Source: Gemmatimonadota bacterium (lineage in GTDB: Bacteria > Gemmatimonadota > Gemmatimonadetes > Longimicrobiales > UBA6960). Taken from it: DNA of 5,612 nt. The stretch's first letter is position 1. Each line of letters begins with the position of its first letter. A program made the translations under genes and the position numbers. The stretch is from positions 1-5,612 of the forward strand of contig JAHWKH010000183.1 in assembly GCA_019347995.1 (NCBI GenBank). Direction: 5' to 3'. The notes beneath the pieces are model-generated. The model was not told where the DNA came from. It made no database searches and saw only the letters and a list, made by a program, of their open reading frames with translations. Shown here piece by piece: positions 1,154-4,602 of this stretch.

Positions 1154-1525
1154 TCATGGACGCGGAGATCGATGTCTCCGGTCCGGACGCACCCCCACGG
1201 CGATGCCCGCCAGGATCAGCGCCCCGCCCACGAACGTGGTGGCCGGCGGAACCTCGCGGATCGCCGGAAGCGCCCACGCGAGCAGCGTGGCGCCCACGGG
1301 CTCGCCCAGCATGGCCAGGTTCGCCACGTAGGCGGGAACGTAGCGCAGGGCGTAGTTCACTCCGGTGTGGCCGACCATCATGGGACCCGCCGCCAGGGCC
1401 AGGAACAGCATCCACTCCCGCGCCGGATAGCCGGTCATCGCGACGCCGGGATGCAGCGCCACCACCCCGGTGAGCGCGGCGGCCGCCACGCCCAGAAGGG
1501 TGTTGAAGAAGGGGAGCGGCCCGCG
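1154..1525 (-). pseudogene. EamA/DMT-family transporter, C-terminal remnant lacking its N-terminal half
   Basis: The minus-strand frame is open from 1525 (just after an in-frame TAA at 1526-1528) to TGA at 1154-1156, giving 123 codons. It has four hydrophobic segments: FFNTLLGVAAAALTGVV, then MLFLALAAGPMMVGHTGVNYAL, then YVANLAMLGEPVGATLLAW, then FVGGALILAGIAVGV. The GH-x-x-x-N-x-A-L, L-x-x-L-x-E-P-V and GG-A-L-I-L-x-G motifs are typical of the second EamA repeat in drug/metabolite transporters, which usually have ten segments and about 300 residues. Only the last four segments remain. There is no credible start: the first GTG is at 1489, inside a membrane segment and without a ribosome-binding site. 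The frame is lost where the hairpin element begins, and no N-terminal half is visible on the far side of that element. I infer a broken gene, by insertion plus deletion or by an assembly join. Confidence 0.8.
1495..1516. repeat. Left terminal inverted repeat of the hairpin element
   Basis: It starts GAAGGGTGTTGAAGAAGG and ends GGAG, and its exact reverse complement lies at 1847-1868. Read on the minus strand it stays in the transporter frame and encodes LPFFNTLL. It may therefore be either the transposon end or original transporter sequence. Confidence 0.8.
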
Positions 1526-1555
1526 TTACGGGCACCACGGGGTGCTCTCCTAGGC

Positions 1556-1614
1556 GGCGCCCCGAAGGCATAGCGACAACGCTTCGCGTTGTTACCGCTA
1601 CGGCGAGGGGCGCC
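1556..1614. repeat. Internal palindromic unit A (GGCGCCCC ... GGGGCGCC)
   Basis: GGCGCCCC (1556-1563) and GGGGCGCC (1607-1614) are inverted repeats framing a nested hairpin. TAGCG (1571-1575) pairs with CGCTA (1596-1600), and ACAACGC (1576-1582) pairs with GCGTTGT (1586-1592) around a TTC loop. On the minus strand the tip reads GCGAAGC, known from DNA oligonucleotide studies as an exceptionally stable mini-hairpin. This unit is related to the block starting at 1730. Confidence 0.72.
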
Positions 1615-1633
1615 AACGACGGAGAGGGCGGGC

Positions 1634-1655
1634 ACCACTTGCGTAGGCAAGTGGT
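1634..1655. repeat. Internal hairpin with a 9-bp stem
   Basis: ACCACTTGC (1634-1642) pairs perfectly with GCAAGTGGT (1647-1655) around a four-base loop GTAG. It is one of the series of compact hairpins inside the element. No T-run follows. Confidence 0.7.
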
Positions 1656-1687
1656 CCGGCTGCCCGTAACCCGAAGGGCGCAGGGGG

Positions 1688-1707
1688 ACCACCACCTTCG
1701 TGGCGGT
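1688..1707. repeat. Internal hairpin with an 8-bp stem containing one mismatch or wobble
   Basis: ACCACCAC (1688-1695) faces GTGGCGGT (1700-1707) around CTTC. The single A:C mismatch on the plus strand becomes a G:T (G-U in RNA) wobble on the minus strand, where the loop reads GAAG. The structure is slightly better on the minus strand. Confidence 0.55.
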
Positions 1708-1729
1708 GCCCGCGGCCTCATGCGGCGTC

Positions 1730-1774
1730 GGCGCCCCATCGCGACCACGCTTCGCGTGGTGCCCGCTACGGCAT
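1730..1774. repeat. Internal palindromic unit B, diverged copy of unit A
   Basis: It begins GGCGCCCC like unit A, then ACCACGC (1744-1750), TTC, GCGTGGT (1754-1760), then a CCGCTACGGC stretch also found in unit A. Relative to unit A the third stem pair changes from A-T to C-G on both arms, so pairing is kept. The minus-strand tip is again GCGAAGC. Confidence 0.68.
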
Positions 1775-1815
1775 CGCCTCAAGGGCCCCTCCTTGCCTGA
1801 GACTCGCAAGAGGTA

Positions 1816-1832
1816 ACAGCCCGAAGGGCTGT
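1816..1832. repeat. Internal hairpin with a 7-bp stem and GAA triloop
   Basis: ACAGCCC (1816-1822) pairs with GGGCTGT (1826-1832) around GAA on the plus strand. It is the hairpin nearest the rpoZ side of the element. It is not followed by a T-run in either direction, so it is not a standard terminator for rpoZ. Confidence 0.68.
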
Positions 1833-1846
1833 CCGCGCGCGCGCCA

Positions 1847-1868
1847 CTCCCCTTCTTCAACACCCTTC
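1847..1868. repeat. Right terminal inverted repeat of the hairpin element
   Basis: It starts CTCCCCTTCTTCAACACC and ends CTTC, and is the exact reverse complement of 1495-1516. It lies 48 bp downstream of the rpoZ stop codon. Flanking bases (CGCCCA before the left repeat, ACCCCT after the right) give no convincing target-site duplication. Confidence 0.8.
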
Positions 1869-1916
1869 ACCCCTGGCGGGCCGGCGACGCGGTCACGGGG
1901 AACGCACCGAGATCTT

Positions 1917-2135
1917 CTAGAGCTCGTCCCTGAGGCGGCGCTTCACCAGGCGGAACTCGAGCTGTCCGGAGGTGAGGGCCTCCAGGGCGCGGGTCGTGAG
2001 CTTCTTCTCCTCGCCCAGCGGGAGGGTCTCCCGGGGCAGCGAGTTGAGCTCGCGGGCGTACTTGGCGGAGGCCAGGACGCCCAGGTACTTGCTCCCGGTC
2101 GTGCTCGCCACCTCGTCGGGCGTGAAAACGCGCAT
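1917..2135 (-). CDS. rpoZ: DNA-directed RNA polymerase omega subunit
   Basis: A 72-residue protein beginning MRVFTPDEVAS and ending RLRDEL. The omega subunit helps assemble and stabilise core RNA polymerase by chaperoning the beta-prime subunit. Support comes from its size, the helix SKYLGVLASAKYARELN (about residues 14-30), where omega proteins carry a lysine/arginine-containing A-A-K-x-A-R-x-[IL]-N segment, and KLTTRALEALTSGQLEFR (about 45-62), matching the conserved T-x-x-A-[LI]-x-E/A-[IL]-x-x-G stretch. Position is strong supporting evidence, since omega genes very often follow gmk. ATG at 2135 is preceded by AGGAG at 2142-2146 with a 6-nt spacer, and only 12 nt separate it from the gmk stop, so co-transcription is likely. 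coaBC, often found next in this order, is absent; the hairpin element starts 48 bp after the stop. Confidence 0.88.
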   Translation of the reverse strand: MRVFTPDEVASTTGSKYLGVLASAKYARELNSLPRETLPLGEEKKLTTRALEALTSGQLEFRLVKRRLRDEL

Positions 2136-3843: not shown

Positions 3844-4266
3844 TCAGGGAAGGACTTCGAATCCCAGGCGCGTCGCATTCTCGAGGACATGCTGGTCCAG
3901 GGACAGCACGGCGACGTCCGGCGCGGCCGAGCGGGCCACGAGGGCGCAGGCCAGGTGGAGCGCGTCCAGGGTGCGCACCGGCTCCAGTGGGAAGGGCCGC
4001 CGCGCCCGCTCCGTGACCGCCTCGTCCAGCGTGAGGATCGTCCAGCGGGCGGCGGCCCTCGAGAGGTGCGCCCCCTGGTCGGCCCGGGCGGCCTCGGAAA
4101 GGAGGCCGGAGCTCCAGGCGCGGATCAGGACCCGCTCGCATTCGACCAGCGTGAGGTCGGATGCCACGATCCGCTCCGCGCCGCCCAGCGCCTGGGCGAC
4201 CTCGTCTCCGCGCGCCTCCCCCAGGAGCCAGGCCAGCACGGCGCTGGACTCCGCGTAGACGATCAC
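3844..4266 (-). CDS. vapC: PIN-domain ribonuclease toxin, VapC-like
   Basis: A 140-residue PIN-domain protein, the normal size for VapC toxins. These are magnesium-dependent ribonucleases that cut tRNA or rRNA when not bound by their antitoxin. The four acidic positions can be placed: Glu6 in VYAESSAVLAWLL, Glu42 in T-L-V-E-C-E-R, Asp101 in LDALHLACAL, and Asp124 in LSLDQHVLENA. The first is Glu where most PIN domains have Asp; this variant occurs in VapC-like proteins beginning Y-A-E-S-S-A-x, so the protein is not necessarily inactive. The start is GTG at 4266, immediately before the first conserved strand; I see no clear ribosome-binding site. It follows a Phd/YefM-like antitoxin gene in the same direction with a 42-bp gap, the standard antitoxin-first order. 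Target RNA is unknown. Confidence 0.88.
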   Translation of the reverse strand: MIVYAESSAVLAWLLGEARGDEVAQALGGAERIVASDLTLVECERVLIRAWSSGLLSEAARADQGAHLSRAAARWTILTLDEAVTERARRPFPLEPVRTLDALHLACALVARSAAPDVAVLSLDQHVLENATRLGFEVLP

Positions 4267-4308
4267 GCGCCGCTGCGACCGGGCCCGCCGAGCGAGCGTC
4301 GCCGCCCG

Positions 4309-4602
4309 TCAGCGGCCGCCGCGTTCGGCATCGAGGAGGTCCTTGGAAGAGCCGGCGGAAAGGGCAGGAGCCCTGGGACGGTAGAGCTCGGGCTCGTGGG
4401 AGCCCCCGCCCGCCGCCCGCCCCTCGCGGACCAGCGCTTCCAGGCCGGCGGCGGGCTCGGGCAGCCGTGTGGTGGCACCCGGCGGGGCCATCTCGGCGAC
4501 GACGGTGCCTCGGTCGGTGATGAGCACCGACTCCCCCGCCTCCACCAGGCGGATGTAATGGGAGAGCTTGTTCTTCAGCTCACGGATTCCCACGGTGCGC
4601 AT
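4309..4602 (-). CDS. Type II antitoxin, Phd/YefM family
   Basis: A 97-residue protein. Residues 1-41 (start MRTVGIRELKNKLSHYIR, then V-E-A-G-E-S-V-L-I-T-D-R-G, then V-V-A-E-M-x-P) form a classic Phd/YefM DNA-binding domain: a helix with the R-E-L-K-N-K-L-S pattern and the G-x-x-V-x-I-T-x-x-G turn. The rest is Pro/Gly/Ala-rich and ends SSKDLLDAERGGR, resembling the toxin-binding tail in VapB-like antitoxins of this type. It should neutralise the downstream PIN toxin and, bound to it, repress the operon. ATG at 4602 is well placed at the conserved N-terminus. The bases just upstream on the coding strand read TTCCTCCC, so there is no Shine-Dalgarno sequence. A leaderless or very short-leader transcript is possible. 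Confidence 0.88.
   Translation of the reverse strand: MRTVGIRELKNKLSHYIRLVEAGESVLITDRGTVVAEMAPPGATTRLPEPAAGLEALVREGRAAGGGSHEPELYRPRAPALSAGSSKDLLDAERGGR

Follow-up and report, generated by a model that had tools for sequence, protein, structure and literature searches.

Non-autonomous DNA transposons of the MITE type are usually viewed as worn-down copies of one transposon that remain tied to that transposon. In bacteria, MITEs that come from or are moved by IS5-family insertion sequences are short and gene-less, occur in multiple copies, and carry terminal inverted repeats equal to those of the transposon. According to PMC5493358, the target duplication of IS5 is Py-T-A-Pu, most often CTAG. 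Among the REP palindromes, the CGTC class is also described without a dedicated transposase (PMC3733652). The element described here is one copy of a MITE family found in the order of its nearest relative. Its kind is already known; what is new is a conserved foldback core, the unlike ends borne by related cores, and small hairpins nested in the element. No description of this family was found in titles or the beginnings of abstracts, subscription papers being mostly beyond reach.

The window, that is, the whole stretch of 5,612 nucleotides analyzed here (contig JAHWKH010000183.1 of a Gemmatimonadota bacterium), contains an element of 374 bp without a plausible gene or transposase gene (Table 1). 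A preliminary description had reported exact 22-bp inverted repeats 330 bp apart that enclose a gene-less mosaic of hairpins. The repeats were found as described, with 22 of 22 positions complementary and a spacer of 330 bp, and no plausible gene was present within the 374 bp. The arms can be extended to 31 nt at 94% (1495–1525 and 1838–1868). With spacers of at least 100 bases, exact inverted repeats reach 22 bases in the window; the longest ones in 100 first-order Markov shuffles reached at most 17 bases and averaged 13.2. As single-stranded DNA, the 374 bases gave −132 kcal/mol, compared with −88.45 (sd 4.19) for 100 shuffles (z −10.39). The dense folding of the mosaic was thereby borne out; the mosaic consists of two foldback modules in inverted orientation, together with five mini-hairpins that belong to a second repeat family. 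The 15 bases from position 1496 of the left end (AAGGGTGTTGAAGAA) are identical to those of the element L291 in genome G006. The flanks, CCAG and CACC, form neither a duplication nor YTAR, and the insertion site of this copy is not clean. A blastn search against plasmids and phages gave no match, and the patterns searched in viral contigs and genome contigs had no match in either.

Table 1. Coordinates of the element, its parts, and its flanks in the window
Feature	Position	Strand	Basis or remark
Whole element	1495..1868	.	1496–1867 if the flanking G/C is counted in a 4-bp target duplication
Left terminal inverted repeat, end class A	1495..1516	+	Exact repeat and end comparison
Foldback module A, split by mini-hairpins 1 and 2	1523..1672	+	Covariance model R1 matches 1545–1626
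Mini-hairpin 1, GACA..TGTTACC form	1575..1596	+	Pattern search
Mini-hairpin 2, GACC..GGTGCCC form	1630..1656	-	Pattern search
Second arm, boundaries approximate	1679..1834	-	Inverted, diverged copy of module A in relatives
Mini-hairpin 3, GACC..GGTGCCC form	1687..1711	+	Pattern search
Mini-hairpin 4, GACC..GGTGCCC form	1743..1764	+	Pattern search
Mini-hairpin 5, GACA..TGTTACC form	1812..1833	-	Pattern search
Right terminal inverted repeat	1847..1868	-	Exact repeat
Left flank: 3' part of EamA transporter gene, 5' part absent	1154..1494	-	Pfam and relatives
Right flank: 48 bp, then rpoZ (omega subunit)	1869..2135	-	Gene annotation and related loci

Copies were sought in 154 genomes of the order of G001, the genome that carries the nearest yicC relative of the window (L022). 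A blastn search with the element interior matched 26 of the 154 genomes, and the ten matched loci that were read showed similar ends or cores. The 18-base end AAGGCTGTTGAAGAAGTA occurred exactly in 20 genomes, 47 times in G093 (26 forward and 21 reverse), and the reversed pattern, used as a control, was absent from all 154. Among 30 loci fetched by this end, 14 contained a second, inverted end within 700 bp, and many of the others were solitary ends or contig ends. The solitary end of L143 reads CTAGAAGGCTGTTGAAGAAGTACAGCCTTCTAG and is perhaps a scar of deletion or excision. Thirty-three elements with distinct flanks, ranging from 97 to 543 bp, were extracted; four of these (L142, L262, L263, and L264) are short forms of 97–167 bp with both ends present, and L123 is the long form of 543 bp. 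The flanks were complete in 28 elements, of which nine had identical 4-bp flanks, 17 had an identical inner 2 bp, and 19 lacked the 4-bp duplication; TA was present at 41 of the 56 ends. When the flanks were shifted by 4 to 20 bases as a control, inner-2 identity fell to 3, 3, 5, 2, and 0 of 30. These identities and the TA frequency, compared with the shifted controls, indicate a CTAG-like target, which fits the IS5 duplication as given in PMC5493358. An empty site was searched for at one site by comparing the joined flanks of the L281 element (G087, CTAG at both ends) with the 154 genomes. Positions 1–454 of 454 matched G085 at 84%, whereas G087 itself matched as two pieces. At the junction, G085 has CTAC and lacks the element, with a 23-bp gap on one side.

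Transposons with matching tips were found in the same order. DUF772 transposase loci were present in 39 of the 154 genomes, and 27 newly fetched and five older loci were scanned for inverted ends. The transposon L222 is 1.48 kb long, has CTAG on both sides and the ends AAGGCTGTTGAAGAA and AAGGCTGTCGAAAAA, and encodes a 461-aa DUF772/DDE transposase that scores 249 bits with the IS1182 profile (cut-off 270) and 173 bits with IS5_4 (cut-off 140). Compared with this transposon from another genome, the window tip matched at 14 of 15 bases and the class A tip at 15 of 15. L223 and L224 have ends similar to those of L222; the transposase of L223 is broken, and that of L224, like that of L222, is IS1182-like just under the cut-off. 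The transposases of L227 and L228 score 328 and 324 bits with IS5_4; the ends of these transposons contain GGAAGCTCTGCACA and share 14 identical bases with one end of each of three MITEs (L271, L274, and L285). The transposon L227 and the MITE L285 reside in the same genome, G153. Two further MITE end classes are matched by L151 and L232 (10/10 and 13/15, respectively). When 16 MITE ends, including two identical 15-base pairs (window and L291, L271 and L285), were compared with 11 transposon ends, 10 beat all 5000 letter shuffles and four had 1–9 shuffles as good; the ends of L282 (73/5000 shuffles as good) and L292 (384/5000) had a weak match or none. Among 37 fetched PF01609 loci (L151–L187) from 13 element-rich genomes, no transposon had class A ends on both sides, and one similar end was present, in L153. 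An R1 search of 23 transposon loci detected no foldback module. An ISNCY-type transposase (469 bits) in L154 (G084) lies between ends GAGTCCGTCCCAAAAC beside TAG, a similar target; its ends were the best match of none of the 16 MITE ends compared.

The preliminary description had suggested an undescribed element mobilized by a transposase elsewhere in the genome, and had named multiple copies, empty sites in relatives, and a transposon with matching ends as the evidence to look for. All three were found in relatives: the AAGGCTGTTGAAGAAGTA end in 20 and the module (see below) in at least 51 of the 154 genomes, the empty L281 site with its adjacent gap, and the ends of L222. The suggestion thus receives support in part, and MITE, a term that the preliminary description already mentioned, is the appropriate name for the family. 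Numerous copies with paired ends, duplications of the CTAG type, a single empty site, and transposons sharing the ends make movement by a transposase encoded elsewhere the best reading, and the ends and targets suggest that this transposase belongs to the IS5/IS1182 group. They fit a DDE transposon.

The interior of the element has a common architecture. A covariance model, R1, was built from the first arm of 16 sequences with the window left out. It matched the first arm of the window with 43.1 bits (E 1.3e-7) and gave no match in the second arm. R1 matched at least 51 of the 154 genomes of the order, with at most 25 candidates scored per genome. In a phylum sample, 51 of 395 genomes were matched; 36 belong to the order list, and the other 15, several of which matched weakly, do not. 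In 25 of the 56 fetched non-window sources, in which a few elements are counted twice, R1 also matched the second arm on the opposite strand, with up to 68 bits. The reverse strand of the self-complementary first arm reaches at most 41.2 bits with R1, and 14 of the 25 second-arm matches score higher, indicating that the element is an inverted module pair between ends. The base unit is about 271 bp long and comprises, between the ends, two inverted copies of a foldback module of about 106 nt. The window copy is about 100 bp longer because of the five mini-hairpins of 22–27 bp.

Compensatory changes maintain the pairing of the core. In A1, an alignment of 17 elements including the window, with the structure taken from one member (L087) and with near-copies among the rows, 85.9% of the cells were paired, compared with 75.9% in the shuffled control and 36–45% with slid partners, the slid comparison being inflated since the fold derives from that one member. 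Changes on both sides were observed in 52 of 101 pairs and 162 cells (29.9 and 55.9 in the shuffled control). The internal loops of the core hold invariant unpaired bases. The pairing may be kept at the DNA or at the RNA level.

The ends of the related cores are unlike one another. Among 30 loci fetched by R1, 21 had a clear end pair, five a weak or short pair, and four none; CTAG was present at one or both ends in 18 of the 21 clear-pair loci. The inner end and the module were alike while the outer bases differed, falling into the classes AAGGCTGTTGAAGAA, GGAAGCTCTGCACA, GAGCCCGTGGTAGAA, CAGCCCGCGGTAGAA, CAGGTCGCTGAAAAA, and AAGCCTGATCGGA, with further outer bases GAGCCTGTCCGAGTA in L083 and L304. 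Related cores therefore bear at least six unlike end types, several of which match different transposons, suggesting that tips have been exchanged. On a tree of 33 modules, in which L270 and L086 are one element, the end classes need 15 changes, where the least possible is 8 and the shuffled mean is 18.4. Good support was obtained for 7 of the 29 inner branches, which makes the number of exchanges uncertain.

All five mini-hairpins of the window lie inside the element. Among the listed alignments of relatives with and without the inserts, they replace a few bases. A strict pattern gave five matches in loci fetched by the end pattern alone, two of which are one element, and all five lay in an element or just inside its one end. 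The same search gave one match (L291) in 82 kb fetched by R1 and none in 872 kb of yicC neighborhoods. From these counts, the mini-hairpins are enriched in the elements and absent from most of them. A looser pattern of one stem type matched 29 of the 154 genomes, 18 times in G002 and 16 times in G007; the reversed form of this pattern, used as a control, gave a single match in each of 16 genomes, so that single loose matches are chance-like. A 22-bp mini-hairpin, GACCACGCTTCGCGCGGTGCCC, was also observed at the same place in several broken IS91-type transposase genes (L153, L196, L197, and L206, in genomes G002, G065, and G095), where it shifts the frame. L206 and L196 carry the Zn_Tnp_IS91 and Y2_Tnp domains, and L196 has a second copy of the hairpin where L206 has about 90 further codons.

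On the minus strand, the left repeat of the window copy directly adjoins what is left of an EamA gene, its 3' part, and continues its frame, which the preliminary description had overlooked; Pfam EamA gives 34 bits on this frame and covers profile positions 29–132 only. The minus-strand neighbors of the element include an SspB-like gene, a Phd antitoxin and PIN pair, yicC, gmk, and rpoZ. The pair of PIN toxin-like and Phd antitoxin-like genes lies between the SspB-like gene and yicC (window 3844–4602, minus strand), and the PIN protein had no match in 80 related loci (L001–L080); SspB-like, yicC, gmk, and rpoZ are all present in 62 of these 80. The nearest yicC relatives among species genomes are mostly Gemmatimonadota/Gemmatimonadetes MAGs, with the best identity, 69%, in L022. 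EamA was found in none of the 80 yicC loci (flanks up to 6 kb, shorter near contig ends), 71 of which contain rpoZ. EamA relatives matched in 32 of the 154 genomes, and most are open frames of at least 290 residues. The two flanks of the window copy thus appear unrelated and do not seem to belong together, and the junction between the EamA remnant and rpoZ is either a rearrangement or an assembly join. We rejected the idea that the inverted repeat is merely EamA coding sequence copied in reverse: in 18 EamA loci of relatives, the region beside the element end reads VYG- or IYG-like with no LPFF, and other elements bear the same ends.

As a whole, the observations are very probably best explained by a MITE with a conserved foldback core, an IS5/IS1182-group helper, exchanged ends, and nested mini-hairpins. 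The main rival to exchange is that one ancestral end diverged and the transposon ends diverged along with it, which we consider rather improbable. The end types do have the CTAG-type target in common, some are alike (C and C2, B and B2), and the end labels cluster on the tree (none of 200 shuffles gave so low a number of changes). Against such co-divergence, the sister modules L267 (class A) and L276 (class C2), with support of 97/81, have the inner end in common and differ in the outer ~15 bases, and the tip-matching transposons score differently, L227 and L228 lying over the IS5_4 cut-off and L222 and L224 being IS1182-like. Another reading makes the core a structured RNA gene or element (a regulatory RNA, ribozyme, or terminator) that rides in MITEs and is selected as a transcript. 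The strong covariation and the invariant loop bases favor it, and the kept internal-loop mismatches argue against mere self-correction of palindromes. In a 53-row MAFFT alignment of the first arm, G-U outnumbered A-C by 34:13 at pairs that are at least 80% Watson-Crick and by 36:26 at those of at least 60%, but over all first-arm pairs the ratio was 69:73. In the alignment A3, it was 62:25 for all pairs and 38:25 for well-paired ones; however, A3 was fitted with an RNA model favoring G-U and contains related rows, and this model also served to find the rows of A3 and of the MAFFT set. For the inner pairs of A1, with the reference left out, the ratio was 39:42. A control of ten tRNAs gave 12:0, yet the tRNA finder admits only G-U. 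No covariance model of Rfam 15 matched the element at the gathering threshold, the sole weak match (E 1.5) falling far under its gathering score. Given some excess of G-U at the best pairs, the core may act as RNA, but we regard selection on a transcript as unlikely.

A further reading, in which a REP-associated tyrosine transposase made the element as a REP/BIME-type cluster, is highly improbable. In size, the five mini-hairpins correspond to REP palindromes, and they are dispersed in other genomes. They are, however, only inserts in an element with long ends and target duplications whose core lacks them, and their tags are not the GTAG or CGTC of the REP classes given in PMC3733652. A Y1 transposase was found as one fragment in one of the 12 genomes searched, and a REP/RAYT origin of the whole element was rejected. 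The mini-hairpins do resemble the REP palindromes inserted in other palindromes (GTAG-15, GTAG-23, and CGTC-1; PMC3733652) in that small palindromes are nested in larger ones; they differ in their tags, GACC..GGTGCCC and GACA..TGTTACC, and in their location in a transposable element. A false join deserves more weight, though we hold it to be the less likely case: the element would be real, and the assembler would have linked a copy in EamA to a copy behind rpoZ. The absence of EamA from all 80 related loci, its mostly full-length relatives elsewhere, and the lack of a duplication common to both flanks favor this. In addition, three fetched G093 contigs stop within 3 bases of an element end, indicating that the family breaks assemblies, and some other copies are located where contigs end. 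On the other hand, both window ends are identical over 22 bases and show the same differences from the class A consensus, as for one copy, although identity is also expected if two copies came from one subgroup, and real recombination between copies would give the same picture. The family also marks spots at which draft genomes from this group are interrupted or possibly misjoined.

For the MITE reading, we propose the following mechanism. A transposon elsewhere would supply a DDE transposase of the IS5/IS1182 group, and this enzyme would recognize the outer ~15 bases of each end and insert the element at CTAG-like sites, duplicating TA or YTAR. Between the ends, the two inverted modules of about 106 nt would each fold back. 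In the history of the core, the ends would have been exchanged, so that the same core came to carry tips of different transposons; where one end gained a new tip, snap-back repair of the foldback may have transferred a copy of it to the opposite end. The second family of 22–27-bp hairpins would have entered the window copy five times. This copy connects the EamA remnant with the stretch behind rpoZ, through recombination of two copies or through an assembly join. A further reading, which we regard as somewhat less likely than not, is that a gene-less foldback chassis persists in the order by swapping tips to suit whichever IS5/IS1182-group transposase is active, that the foldback allows a tip to be copied from end to end, and that the chassis also gathers parasitic mini-hairpins. 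If a core is kept by pairing in at least 51 of 154 genomes and bears unlike ends that match different transposons, an element of this kind would be able to exchange its ends and so outlive its helper. Since the ends are near-identical within a copy and unlike between copies, the snap-back copying idea is directly testable.

The element shares with IS5-family MITEs the short, gene-less form, the multiple copies (in relatives), and terminal inverted repeats matching those of transposons, and differs from them in that its core is an inverted pair of a conserved foldback module and that related cores carry several unlike ends. With the IS1182/IS5-group insertion sequences of the order (L222, L223, L224, L227, L228, and L232), it has the same or similar tips and mostly CTAG-type flanks in common; these encode a transposase (broken in L223), whereas the element does not. 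Judged by title, it also resembles TIMEs and mosaic non-autonomous transposons (PMC4133298), which are gene-less inverted-repeat elements moved in trans, but from the title and the beginning of the abstract, TIMEs are derived from Tn3.
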